35,034 nucleotides of DNA from Bacteroidota bacterium (lineage in GTDB: Bacteria > Bacteroidota > Bacteroidia > Chitinophagales > Chitinophagaceae): positions 1 to 35,034 of the forward strand of contig VBAQ01000050.1 of NCBI GenBank assembly GCA_005883765.1, read 5' to 3'. A program made the position numbers and the translations under genes. Position 1 is the stretch's first letter. Each line of letters begins with the position of its first letter. The notes under the pieces were generated by a model that ran no database searches, was not told the origin of the DNA, and saw nothing but the letters and a program-made list of their open reading frames with translations. This document shows, piece after piece, positions 2,651 to 31,775 of this stretch.

Positions 2651-3124
2651 CTAATAGAACGTTCCGTACAATTTCTTTTCTCGGTGTTTCTTATAGTAGT
2701 AAGAAATTATCACGAGAACTATCAATAAACTAATTGATATTGAAAAAAAAGGATTCGTGAACAGATACAATCCAAAAGCTATAACTGCATATAGAAATAT
2801 TATTACTTGTGGAGTAAAATACGCAAATCCTAAATACCTATCATAGTAACTAGTCGTTTTTTTGAGATGTGTAAAATACAACTGTATACTTTTTTCTGAA
2901 CTCATCTCATTTAGCGATGCATGAAACTCATCAATATACTTTGATATACTTTCATAAACCCATTCCTGATCTTCATTTTTTACATCTCGCAGATGATAAA
3001 TTAAATTCGAAAGAGTTTTAAGTCGAAAATACTTCCGAAATTTCTTATCGGGAATTGACGAGGCAAGTTGCTGATATTTGCTGAACAAGTTTTCCATCTT
3101 TTTGTCTATACTTAACTGCTCCAC
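2651..3124 (-). CDS. Hypothetical protein with a C-terminal membrane hairpin
   Basis: The first about 100 residues are soluble and probably helical (many Lys, Glu, Tyr). They are followed by two closely spaced hydrophobic segments at about 106-124 and 127-143, then a basic tail (YYYKKHREKKLYG). This two-helix C-terminal hairpin would anchor the N-terminal part on the cytoplasmic side. I do not recognise the family; it superficially resembles small SLATT-type membrane proteins, but I cannot show homology. The frame opens with GTG at 3124; an ATG nine codons later (3097) is an alternative start. The AT-rich codon use and its position beside a transposase remnant suggest accessory DNA. Confidence 0.6.
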   Translation of the reverse strand: MEQLSIDKKMENLFSKYQQLASSIPDKKFRKYFRLKTLSNLIYHLRDVKNEDQEWVYESISKYIDEFHASLNEMSSEKSIQLYFTHLKKTTSYYDRYLGFAYFTPQVIIFLYAVIAFGLYLFTNPFFSISISLLIVLVIISYYYKKHREKKLYGTFY

Positions 3125-3265: not shown

Positions 3266-4354
3266 TCAAAGTCTGGTGATCTCAACTAACACATCATTGT
3301 TGCCACCATTACTCGTGCATATATACACTTTGCCCTGTGGAGAAATGCAAAGATCACGCAGGCGCCCCCACTGATCTTTAAAAAAAATTTGTGTTTGAAC
3401 GATCGAGCGGCCATCATCACTTAACTTCATTTGCCTGACGCTACTGTTTTTTAATGTCATCATCAGCAACGAATTTTTCCATTGAGGAATTAGATCATTG
3501 TTGTAGTAATCAAGACCGCAAACGGCTATCGTGCTGTTGCCGCTACTCCAGATTGGTTCTTTGATATTATTCGCTGCGCAAAAAGATAATTCTGATCCGT
3601 CACAGGGCCCTTTGACATCGGGCCATCCATAGTCACGTCCCTTTTCAATGATGTTTAGCTCGTCCTCTATGTCAGGGCCGTGTTCGGAAGAATATAAGAT
3701 GTTATTGACCATGACGAGTCCTTGCGGATTACGATGGCCATAAGTCCACACGGGATTATTTGGAAAAGGATTGTCTGCGGGAATGGTTCCATCAATATTC
3801 AATCTTAAAACTTTACCATTGAGGGCATTGATATTTTGCGGTGAGCTTTGATCCAGGGCGTCACCGGTGGTCATGAATATTTTTGGGTTAGATTCATTGG
3901 TGATCCACAGCCGGGAGCCATCATGGTTGGTGTTTGCTTTTATCCCATCCAATAAAACCATGGGATTGTTCAATGTATTGTTTGCGTAAGTATACCTGAC
4001 AAGTTTTTCCTGGTAATTGCCGGCTTTACGATAGTCATAAACAACATATAAGAAACCATTTTGAGCAAAAGCAGGATGCATCGCCATGCCCAGCAAACCT
4101 CCTTCGCCGAGGGATTCAACGTCGGGAATTGTAAATGAAAATGTGATGTCGCCATTCGCGGGATCAATGCGGCTTATCCTGCCGCCACGTTCCGTCATCC
4201 AGATGTGATCATCCTTTCCCCAAATTATTTCCCAGGGGAAATTAAGTCCGGTTTTTACAATGCGATTGCTGCTTGTGGGCAGAGCAGGAGACTGGTTGTT
4301 TCTGCAAGCTATGCAGACAAAAGTTGCCAACAGTGGAAAGAGAATTTTTTTCAT
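3266..4354 (-). CDS. PQQ-dependent aldose sugar dehydrogenase (GSDH family) lipoprotein
   Basis: This is a 362-residue member of the glucose/sorbosone dehydrogenase family, six-bladed beta-propeller quinoproteins related to E. coli YliI that oxidise aldose sugars in the periplasm. Family landmarks are visible in order: GLNFPWEIIWGKDDHIWMTE (about 36-56), GGLLGMAMHPAF (about 86-97), NHDGSRLW with the catalytic-type histidine (about 143-150), YGHRNPQGLV (about 204-213) and SSEHGPDIEDELN (about 221-233). The N-terminus is a signal peptide ending in FVCIAC, so Cys17 is a likely lipid anchor. A TAnnTTTG element 18 nt upstream supports the ATG. It is monocistronic by spacing (103 nt to the upstream gene). 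Whether the host makes PQQ cannot be seen here. Confidence 0.88.
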   Translation of the reverse strand: MKKILFPLLATFVCIACRNNQSPALPTSSNRIVKTGLNFPWEIIWGKDDHIWMTERGGRISRIDPANGDITFSFTIPDVESLGEGGLLGMAMHPAFAQNGFLYVVYDYRKAGNYQEKLVRYTYANNTLNNPMVLLDGIKANTNHDGSRLWITNESNPKIFMTTGDALDQSSPQNINALNGKVLRLNIDGTIPADNPFPNNPVWTYGHRNPQGLVMVNNILYSSEHGPDIEDELNIIEKGRDYGWPDVKGPCDGSELSFCAANNIKEPIWSSGNSTIAVCGLDYYNNDLIPQWKNSLLMMTLKNSSVRQMKLSDDGRSIVQTQIFFKDQWGRLRDLCISPQGKVYICTSNGGNNDVLVEITRL

Positions 4355-4372
4355 ATCCCTACTTGTCTATCC

Positions 4373-4380
4373 AAAGTTAC
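4373..4380 (-). promoter_or_regulatory. -7 element of the sugar dehydrogenase
   Basis: On the minus strand this reads TAACTTTG, a full match to the Bacteroidota -7 consensus TAnnTTTG, 18 nt before the ATG at 4354. I do not see a TTG at the expected distance upstream, so it is supported by the -7 element alone. Confidence 0.5.
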
Positions 4381-4457
4381 ACCAACTATCATCGATCGCT
4401 TACGCCACGGGTCAACCTGTTTAATTTGCTTGATGAAAAGAATTCCCTGCAATTTTT

Positions 4458-5140: not shown

Positions 5141-6523
5141 ATGTCAACCAGCTCACTGATCGATACGTTGCAAAAGATGCGAAAATTCTTCAATAGTGGG
5201 GAAACCAGACCCTATAAATTTCGCAGAGAGCAGTTGCAGAAATTGAGATCCGCTATACTGTTTAATGAAAAGAAGTTGCACGATGCCCTGTATGCCGATC
5301 TTAAAAAAAGCCCGGAAGAAAGCTGGGTAGCAGAAACCGGGTTTTTGATCAGTGAAATTAATGCTGCCCTAAAGAATTTACGCCGTTGGATGCGTCCCGA
5401 GAAAACGAAAACGAATCTGGTTAACCTTCCTTCCGCAAGTTATATAATGAAAGATCCCCTCGGCGTCGTGCTCATCATTGGCCCATGGAATTACCCATTG
5501 CAGCTTTTATTTACTCCCTTAGCGGGAGCCATTGCAGCCGGCAATTGTCTCGTATTAAAATCAAGTGAATTTGCTCCAGCGACATCGGCGATCATGAAAG
5601 AAATCATTGAAGAAAATTTTCCTTCAGAATATATTCTATTAACAGAGGGCGATGGTGCGACCATTGTTCCTGCGATGATCAATGGCTTCCGTTTCGACCA
5701 TATTTTTTACACAGGCAGCACCGCTGTGGGAAAGATCATTTATAAAATGGCAGCCGAACAATTGGTGCCTGTGACGTTGGAATTGGGAGGTAAAAGTCCT
5801 GCTGTGATAGAGGAAGATGCCAACATTAACGTAGCGGCGCGCAGAATTGCTCTAACAACTTTTTCGAACGCAGGTCAAATGTGCGTAGCGCCCGATTATA
5901 TCCTGGTGAATGAAAAAGTGAAGGAACGATTTATTAACGAGTTAGAGCAAGTGGTAAAGAGATTTTATTCCGAAGATCCAGCAACCAGCTATAATTATGG
6001 CAAGATCATCAATGAAAGACAGTTCGACAGGCTTATTAATTATTTGCAGCAAGGGAAAATTGTATACGGGGGAAAATTTGACAAAGCAAAGCTGTACATC
6101 GAACCAACGATAGTCGAAGAAGTGCCCGAAGATGCTCCGCTGATGACGGAGGAGATCTTTGGACCCATCCTTCCCATTATTCCATTCAAAACGTTTGAAG
6201 AAGCAAAAGCAATTATTGATCGGAACCCGGATCCTTTAGCTTTCTATGTTTTTACCGGGAGCAGCAAAAAAGAGAAACAGTGGGTTGAAAATGTCTCATT
6301 CGGTGGCGGTTGCATTAACAATGCAAGCTGGCATTTAACCAACCATCACCTGCCTTTTGGCGGAATAGGCAACAGCGGCATTGGAAATTATCACGGAAAG
6401 AATTCGTTTGAAACATTCAGTCACCGCAAGGCCATCATGAAAACTCCTACCTGGTTTGATCCTGATATAAAATATCCTCCTTTAAAAGGGAAGTTGTGGC
6501 TGTTTAAGAAAGTAATTCGTTGA
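5141..6523 (+). CDS. NAD(P)-dependent aldehyde dehydrogenase, class 3-like
   Basis: This oxidises aldehydes to acids. The 460-residue length and lack of an N-terminal extension match the short class 3 / fatty-aldehyde branch (AldH3, CalB-like). Visible active-site parts are the WNYPL motif with Asn117 (oxyanion), the general-base Glu214 in TLELGGKSP, and the nucleophile Cys248 in SNAGQMCVAPDY; GSTAVGK at about 192-198 belongs to the cofactor-binding Rossmann region. The C-terminal basic-hydrophobic tail (PPLKGKLWLFKKVIR) resembles the membrane-associating tail of the fatty-aldehyde members, so long-chain aldehydes are plausible substrates. I chose ATG 5141 over a TTG at 5117 because homologues start near MSTSSLIDTL. 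It is monocistronic, with repeats on both sides. Confidence 0.9.
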   Translation: MSTSSLIDTLQKMRKFFNSGETRPYKFRREQLQKLRSAILFNEKKLHDALYADLKKSPEESWVAETGFLISEINAALKNLRRWMRPEKTKTNLVNLPSASYIMKDPLGVVLIIGPWNYPLQLLFTPLAGAIAAGNCLVLKSSEFAPATSAIMKEIIEENFPSEYILLTEGDGATIVPAMINGFRFDHIFYTGSTAVGKIIYKMAAEQLVPVTLELGGKSPAVIEEDANINVAARRIALTTFSNAGQMCVAPDYILVNEKVKERFINELEQVVKRFYSEDPATSYNYGKIINERQFDRLINYLQQGKIVYGGKFDKAKLYIEPTIVEEVPEDAPLMTEEIFGPILPIIPFKTFEEAKAIIDRNPDPLAFYVFTGSSKKEKQWVENVSFGGGCINNASWHLTNHHLPFGGIGNSGIGNYHGKNSFETFSHRKAIMKTPTWFDPDIKYPPLKGKLWLFKKVIR

Positions 6524-6629
6524 CAACAGGCAATTGGCAATAAGCAATAGTCAGGAATAAGTAATAATCGCGCCGGAGAGAAAACATTTTGCCCTTTGCC
6601 TATTGTCGATTGCCCTTTGGTCATTGATT
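6524..6629. repeat. Inverted pair of heptad arrays
   Basis: The left arm 6524-6565 splits into CAACAGG, CAATTGG, CAATAAG, CAATAGT, CAGGAAT, AAGTAAT. The right arm 6588-6629 splits into TTTGCCC, TTTGCCT, ATTGTCG, ATTGCCC, TTTGGTC, ATTGATT. Read on the minus strand the right arm is the same kind of GGCAAT word, so the arms face each other around a 22-nt GC-richer loop. The array starts directly after the TGA (6521-6523) of the aldehyde dehydrogenase and runs up to the promoter of the peroxidase. Confidence 0.85.
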
Positions 6630-23380: not shown

Positions 23381-23408
23381 TCAATGATGAATGGTGAGTG
23401 GTGAATGG
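23381..23408. repeat. Heptad array upstream of the YbjN-like gene
   Basis: Four 7-nt words: TCAATGA, TGAATGG, TGAGTGG, TGAATGG. It lies in the divergent gap between dnaN and the gene at 23464, outside the dnaN promoter. The word is close to that of the array at 19771 but has no inverted partner here. Confidence 0.75.
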
Positions 23409-23463
23409 CAAGAAGATGCCGATTCGCTATTCTTTGTTAACTTGCTTCATTCTGAAAATAAGG

Positions 23464-24789
23464 ATGAACATGCTTGATAAACTCTTTGGCAGGAGCAAAA
23501 AAAAAGCAGAAGCAGAACCCGCAGTCTATTTTGGACGTTACTCCGACAACAATAAGCCCGTTGAAAAAGTAAATCGCTGGTCTGACGCAGAAAATCTTTT
23601 TAAAGAAAAAAAATATCCCGAAAGCCTGGATGCTTTTTATGAATATCTACGGGACGATGCCATTGACAATGTTGTTCACGAACGTAATGAAAGTAGCGGC
23701 CGCTTTCAATTTTACCAGGGATCAAAAATTGTCCGTGGCAATTATGACAATGAGCATTTACATGCTGAAGCAACGCTTGCAAAGATGCCCAACCCCAATG
23801 TTCCGGTTATGCGGCGTCTGCTTGAAATGAATTTTAACCTTTATTACAGTCGATATGCCCTGGAGGGAGAAAAGCTTTGCATGCGTTTCGACAGTGATGT
23901 TGAAACGGCTAGTCCAAGCAAATTATATTACGGCCTTAAGGAATTATCAACCAAAGCAGATAAACAGGATGACCTGCTGGTGCAGGATTTTTCATCACTG
24001 CAAACAACAGACACGGAGCACATTATTGAAATTCCTGCCGAAGAGAAGGAAATCAAGTTTCAGTGGCTGCAAAAATGGATAGGGGAAACTATTTCTTACA
24101 TCAAAACGCTTGACCCAGATAAATTTTCTGGCGGCGTAGCATATTTATTATTAGCCCTGGCATATCGCATCGATTACCTGATCGTACCGGAGGGAAAAAT
24201 CCTGCATGACCTGGAGAAGATCGTAGAGCTTTATTTTAAAAAAAATGAGCGACAGACGACAGAAAAAAACCGGGATATGATCGATGCATTTGAGAAGTTA
24301 AAGAACCGCCCGCAACAAGAGGTATTTGAAGCCTTGTACCGATCCAGGCACACGTTCGCTATTGTGACACCGCAGAACTACAAAACGATTGCTGACGCCA
24401 TTTACAATGCCAGCCAGAACATAAATTGGTATCGGGATAATAATTACCCATCCATTGCTGCGCAGATCGCTGAGTACGGAATTGCCTATTGCCAGTACTC
24501 GTACAGTTTGCCAAGACCGGTAACCGATTTTTTTCATTTGTTTATGATGGTGAATTACGGCGAATACTTCAACGCACTTGGGTTCAATGCGAATTATTAT
24601 AATCCGGAGACAAAACAATTTGACGCAGATAAGATCGCCGACAGGGTGAAACAAATAATCAACGCCTGGAAACCAAAATATCCTAATCTGAAAATGAAGC
24701 TGGAAAATATTAAGTATGATAACATGGTAGTGTTTAATGTTTCCTTCACAACAGAAATAGAATACCTGAACATTGATACCAACCGCTGA
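23464..24789 (+). CDS. YbjN-like domain protein of unknown function
   Basis: This is a soluble 441-residue protein. Residues about 70-175 look like a YbjN / type III chaperone-like domain: a run VMRRLLEMNFNLYYSRYALEG then EKLCMRFDSDVE, then a helix ending TKADKQDDLL, matching the usual pattern (helix with N-aromatic, two strands, long helix). Residues about 200-440 are helical and unrecognised. There is no signal peptide, and the N-terminus is Lys-rich (LFGRSKKKAEAE). I chose ATG 23464 because upstream in-frame residues come from repeat DNA; ATG 23470 is nearly equivalent. The stop lies in the left arm of the GxxExxY cassette. The protease two genes on ends in a similar domain, suggesting a functional pair. 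Confidence 0.65.
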   Translation: MNMLDKLFGRSKKKAEAEPAVYFGRYSDNNKPVEKVNRWSDAENLFKEKKYPESLDAFYEYLRDDAIDNVVHERNESSGRFQFYQGSKIVRGNYDNEHLHAEATLAKMPNPNVPVMRRLLEMNFNLYYSRYALEGEKLCMRFDSDVETASPSKLYYGLKELSTKADKQDDLLVQDFSSLQTTDTEHIIEIPAEEKEIKFQWLQKWIGETISYIKTLDPDKFSGGVAYLLLALAYRIDYLIVPEGKILHDLEKIVELYFKKNERQTTEKNRDMIDAFEKLKNRPQQEVFEALYRSRHTFAIVTPQNYKTIADAIYNASQNINWYRDNNYPSIAAQIAEYGIAYCQYSYSLPRPVTDFFHLFMMVNYGEYFNALGFNANYYNPETKQFDADKIADRVKQIINAWKPKYPNLKMKLENIKYDNMVVFNVSFTTEIEYLNIDTNR

Positions 24790-25240
24790 TTCCTTTGATT
24801 AAATGATCAAACTGAATGATTAAAGAGGAATTTAAATATTCGGACATAACTGAAAAAATAATTGGCTGTGCCATGAAAGTTCACCAGCGTATGAGAAATG
24901 GTTACCAGGAATTGATTTACCATAGGTGCCTGATCATTGAATTTAGGAAAATCGCTTTGTCTTTTTTGAATGAAATTGCACTGCCAATTTTTTATGATGA
25001 AATTGAAATTGGAAAGCGTAGAGTTGATTTTCTGGTTGAGAATAAAGTAGTCGTTGAAATTAAAGCCCAATCGGAATTGACGGATACTCATCTTGCGCAA
25101 GCTTTAAATTATTTGGAAGCATTAAATCTGGAAATAGGATTGCTCATAAATTTTGGCTCCAAAAGTCTCGAGATAAGGCGATTGATCAACAATAAATATA
25201 AACCATCACTGAAATCAGATAAATCAGGGTAATCAGCGGT
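24782..25240 (+). mobile_element. Candidate GxxExxY cassette 1 with inverted degenerate repeat arms
   Basis: The ends are a perfect 10-nt inverted repeat: ACCGCTGATT at 24782-24791 and AATCAGCGGT at 25231-25240. Inside each end the arms continue as degenerate GATT/AATC words with about 9-nt spacing (right arm: AAATCAGAT, AAATCAGGG, TAATCAGCG; left arm: CGCTGATTC, CTTTGATTA). Between them is one GxxExxY gene. The stop of the preceding gene (24787-24789) and the stop of the GxxExxY gene (25230-25232) both lie in arm sequence, and the next gene starts at 25242, one base past the arm. No target-site duplication is obvious. Calling it mobile is inference. Confidence 0.5.
24816..25232 (+). CDS. GxxExxY protein, PD-(D/E)XK nuclease-like
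   Basis: This is an intact 138-residue member of the GxxExxY family, which has a PD-(D/E)XK endonuclease-type fold and no established function. The name motif is Gly29, Glu32, Tyr35 in NGYQELIYHRCL, after the helical KVHQRM. The catalytic-type residues are Asp71 in RRVDFLV, and Glu81 and Lys83 in VVVEIKA, correctly spaced. LAQALNYLEALNLEIGLLINFGSKSLEIRR is, in pieces, the standard C-terminal half. The last residues (SLKSDKSG) are encoded by the right repeat arm. It may be carried inside the transcript of its neighbours, but it looks inserted between two genes that share a domain. Confidence 0.88.
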   Translation: MIKEEFKYSDITEKIIGCAMKVHQRMRNGYQELIYHRCLIIEFRKIALSFLNEIALPIFYDEIEIGKRRVDFLVENKVVVEIKAQSELTDTHLAQALNYLEALNLEIGLLINFGSKSLEIRRLINNKYKPSLKSDKSG

Positions 25241-25241
25241 C

Positions 25242-26342
25242 ATGGATGTACAACAGATCATAGAAAATTTTCAGCCGGCGATTATTCAAATCGCCACGCA
25301 AACGGCTACCGGTACCGGGTTCTATGTAAAGGAGTTTGATCTCATTGTTACCAATGAGCACGTTGTTGGCAATAATGCGGAAGTAACAATAGCCGGAAAA
25401 TTATTTCCAAAAACACTTTCGAGGGTTTGGTATTTAGACAAGAAACATGATCTCGCATTCTTAGAGCCACCAAAAGGAACGATTCTGCCGGAGTTAAAGC
25501 TGGGTAGCTATGAGGCAATGAAAGATGGCGACCAGGTTGTGGCCATCGGCCATCCTTACGGATTAAATTACACAGCCACCCAGGGTGTAATTTCAAAGGT
25601 TGATCGGATTCGCGATGGCTTAAAATTCATACAGATTGACGCTGCCATCAACCCGGGCAATAGTGGCGGACCGTTGGTCAATGATAACGGGGAAATCATT
25701 GGAGTAAATTCTTTTATCATTCGGGGTGGGGATAATCTCGGCTTTGCGTTGCCTGTAAGCTATTTGCGTGAAGCTTTGCAATTATATCTTCCCAATAAGG
25801 GGCAGCCCTCCACGCGCTGCCACAGCTGCAATTACCTGGTCACGCCGGCGAATATCGATTCACAAAAATATTGTCCCAGTTGCGGTACTGAGATCAAATT
25901 GCCTGTAATGCCTGAGAAAGAAATGGAATCTATTGGCGTAGCAAAAACAATGGAAGAAATCTTAAAAGCATTGGGAAAGGATGTCAAGCTCGCCCGCGAG
26001 GGGCAAAACAACTGGAGTGTAAAAGAGGGTTCAGCAAAAATCAAGATCAACTACAATCCGGAAAATTATTTTATTACCGGGGATGCTTATCTCTGCCAAC
26101 TACCGCCGGATGCGTCAAAGATCAGACCCCTGTACCAATATCTGCTCCGGGAAAATTACAAATTAAACGGCCTTGTTTTGAGTTGCGTAAAACAGAACAT
26201 TGTTCTTTCATCTATTGTTTATGATCTCGATATGACCAGGGAAAGTGGTGTAGAAACCTTTCAGCACCTCTTTAAAAAAGCCGACGAGTACGACGATTAT
26301 TTGAAAAAGGAATTTGGTTGCGTCGAGCGATTGGAAGAATAA
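25242..26342 (+). CDS. Cytoplasmic trypsin-like protease with zinc ribbon and YbjN-like tail
   Basis: A three-part protein of 366 residues. Residues 1-185 are an S1C/HtrA-like serine protease with catalytic His40 (VTNEHVV), Asp70 (KKHDLAFL) and Ser141 (NPGNSGGPLV). Residues 193-214 form a zinc ribbon with two CxxC pairs (Cys193, Cys196, Cys211, Cys214). Residues about 235-355 look like a YbjN / CesT-type domain (LYQYLLRENYKLNGLVLS, VKQNIVLSSIVYDLD, then helix FQHLFKKADEYDDYL). There is no signal peptide or membrane helix and no PDZ domain, so it should act in the cytoplasm, unlike DegP. The shared tail with the gene at 23464 suggests that the two proteins act together. Confidence 0.85.
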   Translation: MDVQQIIENFQPAIIQIATQTATGTGFYVKEFDLIVTNEHVVGNNAEVTIAGKLFPKTLSRVWYLDKKHDLAFLEPPKGTILPELKLGSYEAMKDGDQVVAIGHPYGLNYTATQGVISKVDRIRDGLKFIQIDAAINPGNSGGPLVNDNGEIIGVNSFIIRGGDNLGFALPVSYLREALQLYLPNKGQPSTRCHSCNYLVTPANIDSQKYCPSCGTEIKLPVMPEKEMESIGVAKTMEEILKALGKDVKLAREGQNNWSVKEGSAKIKINYNPENYFITGDAYLCQLPPDASKIRPLYQYLLRENYKLNGLVLSCVKQNIVLSSIVYDLDMTRESGVETFQHLFKKADEYDDYLKKEFGCVERLEE

Positions 26343-29896: not shown

Positions 29897-30670
29897 ATGA
29901 TCAAGGAAATTTCAAACGGCTACGTAAAATCAGAATTTCATAATAGCGTCACCACCATTGAATTCTTTCATCCACAAAGCAATTCATTGCCTTTAAAAAT
30001 TCTGGATGAGTTGGCGCAAGCGATCCATCGGGCAGGAAATGATGATGAAACGAAAGTAATTGTTCTTTGCTCGGGAGGAGATAAGGTCTTTTGTGCTGGC
30101 GCCTCATTTGACGAGCTTGCAGCTATTCAAAATGCCGAGCAGGGTTTGCAATTCTTTAGCGGCTTTGCTCATGTCATCAATGCCATGAGGATCTGTCCCA
30201 AATTTATTATCGCCAGGGTGCAGGGCAAATGCGTAGGGGGAGGAGTTGGCCTTGTGGCCGCCGCAGATTATGCCATTGCTACAGAACATGCAGAAATACG
30301 ATTGAGCGAACTGGCGATCGGCATCGGGCCGTTTGTGGTAGGGCCGGCGGTAGAAAGAAAGATCGGCATCTCTGCTTTTTCTCAATTAACCATTGACGCT
30401 GCCATGTGGCGAAATGCTCAGTGGGCTGGCCGCAAAGGTTTGTTCGCTGAAGTACATGCTACGGTGGACGGAATGGATGAGTCCATTGCAAAACTCGCTC
30501 ATGCTTTAATACATTCAAATCCACAGGCAATGGCTGAAGTAAAAAAAATATTCTGGAAGGGGACAGAGAACTGGGATCGCCTTCTGCTAGAACGAGCAGC
30601 GATAAGCGGAAAATTGGTGTTGAGTTCCTTTACAAAAAATGCCATTGAAAAGTTTAAGGCTAAGAGATAG
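29897..30670 (+). CDS. Enoyl-CoA hydratase/isomerase family protein
   Basis: This is a crotonase-fold enzyme, 257 residues. The oxyanion-hole segments are KVFCAGASFDELAAI (about 63-77) and GKCVGGGVGLVAAADYAIA (about 110-128); LSELAIGIGPFVVGP (about 136-150) holds the second glutamate region. The gene overlaps the paaZ transcript (4-nt gap), so a role in phenylacetate or another CoA-ester pathway is likely (PaaF/PaaG-like or methylglutaconyl-CoA hydratase-like), but I cannot choose between them. The last residues (KAKR) and stop lie in the left arm of the second GxxExxY cassette, so the natural C-terminus may have been altered. Confidence 0.85.
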   Translation: MIKEISNGYVKSEFHNSVTTIEFFHPQSNSLPLKILDELAQAIHRAGNDDETKVIVLCSGGDKVFCAGASFDELAAIQNAEQGLQFFSGFAHVINAMRICPKFIIARVQGKCVGGGVGLVAAADYAIATEHAEIRLSELAIGIGPFVVGPAVERKIGISAFSQLTIDAAMWRNAQWAGRKGLFAEVHATVDGMDESIAKLAHALIHSNPQAMAEVKKIFWKGTENWDRLLLERAAISGKLVLSSFTKNAIEKFKAKR

Positions 30671-31141
30671 GCTAAGAGATAAAAGGAGAAAAAGAGATAA
30701 AGGGTTATGACAATAAACGAACTCACAGGAATTATTGTCGATTTATGTATCAAAATACATTCGAAAATCGGTCCAGGTTGTTTTGAAAGAGTTTATGAGG
30801 AAGTCTTGTATTATGAATTAACTAAGTTAGGATTAAATGTACAGCGGCAGGTTTTGCTGCCTATTGATTATGAAAAATTGCATATAGAAAATGCGTACAA
30901 GGTTAGACCTGCTTGTCGAACGTATGCTGGTAATAGAATTGAAAACCGTTGATCCGTTACCTCCCGTTTATTTCAAGCAAGTAAGAACTCATCTCTTGCT
31001 ATTAAATCTAAAGCACGGGATGCTGGCTAATTTTAAGGTTGAATTAATGAAGGAGGGTATCCATCGTGGTATCAATAATTTTGGTAAGGAGTCTCTGTTG
31101 TGATTGTTCCTTTTTCTCCTTTTCTCTTTAAGCTCTTAGCC
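30658..31141 (+). mobile_element. Candidate GxxExxY cassette 2 with inverted degenerate repeat arms
   Basis: The left arm has GGCTAAGAG twice (30658-30666, 30670-30678) followed by AAAAGGAGAAAAAG (30681-30694). The right arm, as complement, has CTTTTTCTCCTTTT (31110-31123) and CTCTTAGCC (31133-31141). Both blocks are thus present as inverted copies in the same order from the ends inward. Between them is one GxxExxY gene, frameshifted. The upstream gene's stop (30668-30670) is in the left arm, and the downstream gene's ATG (31143) is one base past the right arm. The arm sequence is unrelated to that of cassette 1. Mobility is inference. Confidence 0.5.
30707..31103 (+). pseudogene. Frameshifted GxxExxY protein gene
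   Basis: Two frames together make one GxxExxY protein of about 132 residues. Frame one starts at ATG 30707 and has the motif Gly, Glu, Tyr in PGCFERVYEEVLYYEL, continuing to IENAYK. The chain then resumes one base later as LDLLVERMLVIELKTVDPLP, with the catalytic-type Asp, Glu and Lys, and ends INNFGKESLL at 31103. One extra G in the pair at 30901-30902 explains the shift. Apart from this the family sequence is well preserved, so the lesion is recent, or a sequencing error. Confidence 0.85.
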
Positions 31142-31142
31142 C

Positions 31143-31775
31143 ATGCATTTAACTTTTCACAAAGACAACTTCCATACTCTTGGCGATAAACTAACGAAAA
31201 AAGATAAACACCTTCGTTTCATAGTTAAGCAATATGGCTACCCACCGTTATGGACAAGGCCTGCAAATTTTCAAACCCTGGTTCATATCATTCTTGAGCA
31301 ACAGGTCTCCCTGGCTTCTGCAAGAGCAGCGTTGAATAAATTACAAGAAAAGCTTGGAGTTATCACGCCCAGAAAAATTTTCTCCCTTTCAGATGAAGAA
31401 TTAAAGGCTTGTTATTTCAGTCGCCAGAAAATTGTTTATGTAAAATGCCTGGCACAATCAATCATAGCTAAACAAACCAATTTAAAAACTCTATCAGCGC
31501 TTAACGATTCAGAAGTAAGACAACAACTGAAAACGATAAAGGGCATTGGCGATTGGACGGTAGACGTTTATCTTTTGTTTGCACTTCAACGAACCGATAT
31601 TTTCCCAGTCGGAGACCTGGCAATGGTCAATGCGCTTAAGGAAATAAAGCAATTACCAAAAAAGATAAGCCAGGAAAAATTACTCGCACTCGGCGAGGAA
31701 TGGCGGCCTTATCGTTCCATTGCGACCATGCTATTGTGGCATTATTATATTCAGAAAAGGGGAATCAAGCTTTAG
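31143..31775 (+). CDS. AlkA-like DNA-3-methyladenine glycosylase (HhH-GPD)
   Basis: This is a base-excision-repair glycosylase removing alkylated purines, 210 residues. The HhH-GPD domain fills the protein: PANFQTLVHIILEQQVS (about 40-56), the helix-hairpin-helix LKTIKGIGDWTVDVYL (about 129-144), and the catalytic Asp158 in DIFPVGDLAM. It lacks the N-terminal domain of E. coli AlkA, and the four cysteines of an iron-sulphur cluster are absent, excluding Nth/MutY. ATG 31143 is one base after the right arm of cassette 2. It overlaps the convergent DegT gene by 4 nt at the 3' end. Confidence 0.9.
   Translation: MHLTFHKDNFHTLGDKLTKKDKHLRFIVKQYGYPPLWTRPANFQTLVHIILEQQVSLASARAALNKLQEKLGVITPRKIFSLSDEELKACYFSRQKIVYVKCLAQSIIAKQTNLKTLSALNDSEVRQQLKTIKGIGDWTVDVYLLFALQRTDIFPVGDLAMVNALKEIKQLPKKISQEKLLALGEEWRPYRSIATMLLWHYYIQKRGIKL

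Follow-up and report, generated by a model that had tools for sequence, protein, structure and literature searches.

A GxxExxY nuclease-like gene between inverted word arms in a Bacteroidota genome: comparison with its relatives favours a homing-like cassette

Background

Free-standing homing endonuclease genes spread laterally while staying faithful to their site, and in REP-RAYT systems (REPtrons) small palindromic repeats are tied to a single protein family, the HUH Y1 transposases.

Intervening sequences (IVS) of 23S rRNA combine terminal arms with a small open reading frame (ORF). As described in the accessible part of PMC4990558, the IVS of Coxiella measures 428 nt, has a 28-bp terminal stem, is excised by RNase III and carries three GACAGAT heptamers ahead of its ORF; the same source records the old idea of the IVS as a transposed element. 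The four-helix-bundle 23S rRNA IVS protein (PF05635) is related, according to PMC10053308, to the Avd protein of diversity-generating retroelements. Short periodic words are also found in intergenic DNA: the 7-nt TAACTGA words reported by MacGregor in 2015 (PMC4679880) lie, in one genome, mostly just before start codons, and occur in Cyanobacteria and Bacteroidetes among others. The accessible text of PMC8934634 has GxxExxY merely as the label of a neighbouring gene, and no description of armed GxxExxY cassettes was found among the literature matches listed, in which subscription journals and preprints were mostly not included.

A preliminary description, made from the sequence alone, proposed that a GxxExxY gene and the inverted arms on either side of it form one mobile unit. 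In this study we compare that locus with its relatives in 60 genomes of the same bacterial family, one per species, and beyond, and weigh the evolutionary and mechanistic scenarios that might explain it.

Results

The GxxExxY gene of the window and its arms

The window, i.e. the whole stretch of DNA analysed (35,034 nucleotides), carries the following features around the GxxExxY gene:

23398-24789, forward strand: upstream host gene, its stop TGA (24787-24789) within the left arm; its orthologue adjoins the downstream gene in the sister species G001
24782-24808, forward strand: left arm, outer end ACCGCTGATT, then GATT, GATT and GATC words spaced 9 and 8 nt
24816-25232, forward strand: GxxExxY gene, 138 aa, predicted PD-(D/E)XK nuclease fold (TIGR04256, PF13366, invariant columns, AlphaFold2 model)
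25213-25240, forward strand: right arm, AATC words spaced 9 nt, outer end AATCAGCGGT
25242-26342, forward strand: downstream host gene, trypsin-like peptidase domain, ATG at 25242, 1 base past the right arm

The inverted repeat said to bound the region (ACCGCTGATT / AATCAGCGGT) is indeed perfect and forms the outer arm ends, and the degenerate words said to continue it can be read from the window sequence, three per side (starting at 24788, 24797 and 24805 on the left, and at 25213, 25222 and 25231 on the right); the 19-nt stretches 24782-24800 and 25222-25240 show 84% complementarity. The stop and start geometry was also correctly described, with the stop of the left gene in the left arm, the GxxExxY stop (TAA, 25230-25232) inside the right arm and the next ATG one base on, and GxxExxY is the sole gene between the arms, its profile matches lying far over their cut-offs. 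The YbjN-like domain attributed to both flanking genes was only weakly borne out, by a BLASTP match between the two neighbours at E 0.003; TY-Chap1 matched the left one under its cut-off, at E 0.011. The proposal that the cassette lies within a two-gene unit agrees with the adjacency of the flanking pair in the sister species G001. The GxxExxY gene is absent there, but the end of the gap consists of AATCCGCG words, so that the gap probably represents a decayed cassette; a clean empty site for the window copy was not obtained, this gap retaining arm-like words.

The arms of the window copy are unremarkable by length alone: their Smith-Waterman score of 23 was reached in 12 of 200 shuffles and at 21-22% of the control ORFs. 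Three words chained on each side, spaced 8-9 nt and oppositely oriented, occurred in none of 100,000 shuffles and none of 163 control ORFs, in a test picked after the words had been seen; the same chain was found in 16 of 80 relatives of arm class B (defined below) and in 2 of 75 copies from the family.

A putative nuclease of the PD-(D/E)XK type

The window protein matched TIGR04256 with 133.6 bits (cut-off 35) and PF13366 (PDDEXK_3), the sole Pfam family matched, with 125.6 bits (cut-off 22). Residues D71, E81 and K83 are present and were invariant among 37 sequences. The AlphaFold2 model (pLDDT 88.7) had Cas4 SSO0001 as its nearest solved structure (Z 9.2, rmsd 3.1, 100 residues), and a profile search of the sequences of solved structures gave no match at E 1. 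The GxxExxY protein is, on profiles and model, a small PD-(D/E)XK domain and a putative nuclease. PADLOC returned weak Cas4/Cas4b matches alone (best E 2e-5), which were taken as fold similarity. Among phage records nothing matched the window protein at E 1e-5; eight plasmid records matched it, every one below 60% identity. Rfam gave no match at gathering scores between 23300 and 32000.

A second cassette and further copies in the same genome

A second, broken cassette lies downstream in the window (30646-31159), with GCTAAGAGATA arms and likewise between two co-directional genes:

29897-30670: upstream gene, enoyl-CoA hydratase/isomerase family
30646-30703, forward strand: left arm (Smith-Waterman score 47), overlapping the end of the upstream gene and holding its stop
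30722-31067, forward strand: broken GxxExxY gene, with matches in two frames (30722-30904 and 30804-31067) and internal stops
31109-31159, forward strand: right arm, within which the next gene begins
31143-31775: downstream gene, HhH-GPD family

Its arms are stronger than those at 24782-25240, the score of 47 being reached in none of 200 shuffles. The genome of the window (G000) contained 15 GxxExxY match rows, corresponding to about 11 copies by place, six of them full length, and 14 PF05635 match rows, corresponding to about 13 copies.

Inverted arms are common at GxxExxY and PF05635 genes

GxxExxY matches were found in 38 of the 60 genomes. From 139 match rows, 75 were chosen as the family set, namely the six full-length copies in the window's genome and 69 drawn from the best-scoring others; one with a short flank was dropped, and 74 entered the arm test. 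A second set comprised the best 80 of at least 584 relatives in named genomes, retrieved with a class B profile, and was reduced to 76 by dropping four short flanks. The PF05635 set held 41 copies, 12 from the window's genome and 29 loci of a longer match list. Arms were scored by Smith-Waterman alignment of the upstream flank with the reverse-complemented downstream flank, scores of 28 or more being called strong.

Strong inverted arms flanked 57 of 74 family copies and 49 of 76 in the second set, as against 8 of 163 other ORFs of the same loci, one of these eight being itself a second GxxExxY gene. PF05635 copies reached the threshold in 30 of 41 cases; 17, 27 and 11 copies of the three sets fell below it, respectively. 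The period of the arm words depends on the protein family: it is 7 nt around PF05635 (z 30.5), with 27 of 30 arm-bearing loci (L016-L028 and L107-L135) giving 7 as their best lag, and 8-9 nt around GxxExxY (z 8.8 and 10.4), with 46 of 57 giving 8 or 9.

Two further loci were observed in the course of this survey. At L053 (about 2692-3033) a 113-aa ORF unlike GxxExxY lies between GATT/GCAGATT inverted arms with a score of 96, and is possibly another cargo. L192 carries two GxxExxY genes on one strand (4001-4405 and 6157-6558), about 1.8 kb apart.

Arm class follows the nuclease tree

Two main classes of GxxExxY arm were distinguished, class A with CACAGAG, CGCAAAG and CACGAAG words, and class B with the outer end TGTCTGAAC followed by GATT words, a few arms being of other kinds. 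Classes were set by a crude word count, which left 11 of 79 rows unclassified and dropped. On the protein tree of the remaining 68 rows, built like the other protein trees on few columns and with many unresolved forks, arm class changed three times, whereas 2000 shufflings of the labels required 21 changes on average and never fewer than 14. The window copy was placed within the class B clade. Arm similarity drops with protein distance inside each class as well (class A, r -0.37 over 28 copies; class B, r -0.49 over 20; Mantel p 0.001 each). Such covariation of arms and nuclease is expected if the protein recognises its own arms.

Cassettes lie mostly in sense at stop/start junctions

In the family set (n=75), for which neighbour orientation rests on crude ORF calls, both neighbours were co-directional with GxxExxY in 51 cases and both antisense in six; 13 were convergent, two divergent, and three had a side missing. 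The second set gave 49 copies with both neighbours on the same strand vs one with both antisense (n=63), and PF05635 gave 29 vs six (n=41). The terminal motif TGTCTGAAC...GTTCAGACA, with at most 2 mismatches, was found at both sides of 63 of 75 class B copies, compared with 29 of 75 left flanks and 23 of 75 right flanks for the same motif in opposite orientation. In the second set, 28 of 57 upstream same-strand genes ended +7, +8, +14 or +15 relative to the left motif, in most cases with a TGA written by the arm, and 16 of 54 downstream same-strand genes started 1-3 nt past the right motif.

Host genes identified by family match included trpF/trpB (L063), hemH (L103), nuoF/nuoG (L058) and hsdM (L082). 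Among 68 upstream genes of the class B set, 16 matched HsdS and about eight matched HsdR families, restriction-modification families recurring downstream as well; type I restriction operons are over-represented there because the set was chosen for likeness to an hsdS-linked copy. The four-helix-bundle gene that PMC5524665 places, in Flavobacterium columnare, between the genes for guanylate kinase and nicotinate-nucleotide adenylyltransferase likely marks another such junction site.

One orthologous site occupied by two kinds of cassette

The preliminary description had suggested looking for cassette-free sites, and these are frequent at the nuoF-nuoG junction, which was taken from 56 of the 60 genomes: 32 junctions were without an element gene, 14 held GxxExxY, seven held PF05635 and three were unresolved. 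Each of the 21 cassettes is oriented in sense. Among the 32, 28 had gaps of 7-157 nt and four had other sequence (867-1139 nt). Some short gaps look like arm debris, e.g. that of G029, a 69-nt CACGCAAAG...CTTTGCGAG hairpin. The empty gaps showed no common sequence when compared by eye, and a homing target may possibly lie in the codons flanking the gap. The nuoG gene of the window's genome (L298, 820-1701) has six in-frame stops when read from its start, through either a frame break or an assembly error.

The GxxExxY copies at this junction group in one clade, of which L045 is the sole member located elsewhere (SH-aLRT 98), and the PF05635 copies there also form one clade. Tree tests, run on 13 of the 14 GxxExxY copies with the broken copy of G041 omitted, rejected the host tree inferred from nuoF and nuoG (delta lnL 81, p-AU 6.8e-7). 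Sampled host bootstrap trees were rejected in 30 of 30 cases (maximum p 0.00016), and in 20 of 20 once the long branches G012 and G038 were left out; GxxExxY distances at the junction showed no significant correlation with those of the hosts (r 0.15, p 0.18). Arm scores averaged 41.7 within a copy vs 21.6 between copies, though just 7 of 13 left arms had their best match in the right arm of the same copy. Taken with the conflict between trees, the keeping of one clade at this junction points to homing-like behaviour: the lineage appears to retain its site yet move between hosts. Lateral spread into one orthologous site is indicated for these nuoF-nuoG relatives, not for the window copy.

The junction also differs within a single genus. 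In G010, G061 and G062 the nuoF and nuoG flanks are 91-94% identical at the DNA level (gap columns excluded), and the same gap is filled by inserts of 500-509 nt of two kinds, GxxExxY with 8-9-nt arms in G010, and, in G061 and G062, PF05635 with A-rich arms whose words measure 7 nt by eye. Since G061 retains a short class-A-like arm end, TTTCACGC, ahead of the PF05635 arm (by eye), the comparison suggests that one cassette type was replaced by the other in this genus. In G062 the last codons of nuoF are altered and its stop lies within the word array. The genus of G053 contained G053 alone among the genomes compared.

Gene-less hairpins and flanking duplications

The terminal motif TGTCTGAAYNNNGATT occurred 155 times in 24 of the 60 genomes, compared with five occurrences of the reversed pattern, and one genome (G006) had 16 terminal motifs and no GxxExxY match. 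Five motif pairs were inspected (L302-L306), all of which were gene-less TGTCTGAAC...GTTCAGACA hairpins of 135-195 bp. The three in G005 (L302-L304) have interior sequence in common, by eye. An array of class B hairpins of about 100 bp, with repeated sequence between them, was seen at L307 (G044, C1 466600-468600).

Direct repeats outside the arms exceeded the 99th percentile of cross-locus pairs in 7 of 58 GxxExxY copies, some of these being arm repeats, and in one of 30 PF05635 copies. Clean long flanking duplications were found at L057 (42 bp abutting both arms), L082, L083 and L099. At L082 the cassette has a duplicated 5' end of hsdM on one side and hsdM itself on the other, which looks as though the target had been repaired by a duplication of about 100 bp. 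Short target duplications of 2-8 bp showed no clear enrichment among 39 class B copies. Long, variable duplications would, in the few cases available, point to widely spaced nicks or repair synthesis and not to a classical transposase.

Discussion

We favour the reading of 24782-25240 as an old, worn copy of a homing-like armed cassette, which we regard as somewhat probable. That arms and gene are mobile together, as the preliminary description proposed, is in our judgement very likely, supported by the arms of relatives, the control genes and the cassette-free sites. Our reading draws on sequence comparison, i.e. on the cassette structure, the covariation of arms with nuclease clades, the tree conflict at nuoF-nuoG, the apparent replacement by four-helix cassettes, the gene-less hairpins and the few long duplications; that the nuclease drives the movement is what we infer.

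As to mechanism, our proposal is a tentative one, held with slightly less than even confidence. The nuclease would recognise its own arm words, either as a folded arm or as duplex, and would cut or nick the ends of the cassette as well as the target, after which host repair would copy the cassette into the site in a homing-like manner. The gene would be expressed via the transcript of the host operon, and the sense bias would follow if it is promoterless and dependent on that transcript. The neighbours need not be destroyed, because an arm can supply the stop of the upstream gene and may abut the next ATG.

The sense bias could instead stem from an RNA step. Under an RNA-level alternative, which we consider unlikely, the cassette would behave as an intervening sequence whose arms pair in the mRNA and which RNase III removes, the hairpin conferring tolerance while movement takes place by another route. 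The prevalence of sense copies fits this scenario, as do the shared layout and shared nuoF-nuoG site of the PF05635 cassettes, the terminal stem and heptamer repeats given for the Coxiella IVS in the accessible part of PMC4990558, and the pairing predicted for the outer arms when the window copy is folded as RNA. Wobble counts and folding gave it no support: wobble-type (G-U) mismatches in the arms showed no sense-strand bias (61 vs 71; 26 vs 29 for PF05635), and the whole-cassette fold of the window copy was no better than shuffles (z -0.76). The conservation of the D and ExK residues in the GxxExxY protein also argues against it.

A DNA-level cassette might also be moved in trans by a transposase of the host or of an insertion sequence (IS), its arms being ordinary terminal inverted repeats and the nuclease a passenger. 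The conserved outer ends and the gene-less copies, which resemble miniature inverted-repeat elements (MITEs), are what such a transposon would display, but no short target duplication stood out among the 39 copies, arm type tracks the nuclease clade, which is unexpected for a passenger, and the arms of the window copy enclose no gene other than GxxExxY; we hold this scenario to be quite improbable. Least credible of all is a resident operon gene, e.g. a defence accessory, inherited with its neighbours and bordered by regulatory hairpins, since the hosts include ordinary operons (nuoF/nuoG, trpF/trpB, hemH and a gene of the enoyl-CoA hydratase family), GxxExxY is patchily present (38 of 60 genomes) and its nuoF-nuoG tree rejects that of the hosts, although HsdS and HsdR upstream and restriction-modification genes downstream are common in the class B set, picked near an hsdS-linked copy.

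With a homing-like armed cassette, a nuclease family so far named only by motif and fold in the NCBIfam and Pfam models would acquire a role open to testing, and the unexplained mobility of 23S rRNA IVS would be linked to a broader range of cassettes situated between protein genes. Should the arm words be a recognition code, the covariation of arm and protein amounts to a specificity table for a nuclease of about 140 aa. Armed cassettes could, furthermore, account for some of the periodic sequence found between genes in Bacteroidota.

Comparison with known systems

DNA transposons and IS elements differ from the window copy, which has no transposase between its arms, and from its relatives, in which no fixed short target-site duplication was seen (39 class B copies). 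The gene-less hairpins (135-195 bp), which share the ends of the cassettes, are MITE-like, but the gene-bearing copies are without a short target-site duplication and no transposase partner was found. REP-RAYT systems likewise associate palindromic repeats with one protein family and have gene-less dispersed copies; here a PD-(D/E)XK nuclease stands in place of the HUH Y1 transposase, and its gene is enclosed by the two halves of a single palindrome. TAACTGA repeats share the feature of 7-nt words in intergenic DNA, but are direct arrays of one word, and the accessible part of PMC4679880 draws no link to PF05635 or to nuclease genes; we suggest that these arrays are linked to armed cassettes.

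Homing endonuclease genes are closer, in that GxxExxY occupies one orthologous site, nuoF-nuoG, and appears to spread laterally into it. The cassette differs from them by its own inverted word arms, by its PDDEXK_3 domain and by empty gaps with no common sequence by eye. With the IVS of 23S rRNA it shares a length of about 0.4 kb and a single small ORF between inverted terminal arms, and PF05635 cassettes with a 7-nt arm period hold the same nuoF-nuoG site. It differs in that the window protein belongs to PDDEXK_3 and not to PF05635, in that the window copy lies between protein genes and not in 23S rRNA, and in that its inverted arms are made of 8-9-nt words instead of 7-nt ones. The window element is not itself an IVS, given the wrong protein, site and period, and resembles both an IVS and a homing gene in its working.

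A broader generalisation, possible although we lean against it at present, is that word-armed homing cassettes constitute a large undescribed bacterial class, in which nuclease and four-helix clades would read their own 7-, 8- or 9-nt arm words, target the stop/start junctions of operons and compete for sites, with 23S rRNA IVS, TAACTGA arrays and GATT or CACAGAG hairpins as members or debris. Armed GxxExxY cassettes are best read as homing-like elements and cousins of the 23S rRNA intervening sequences.
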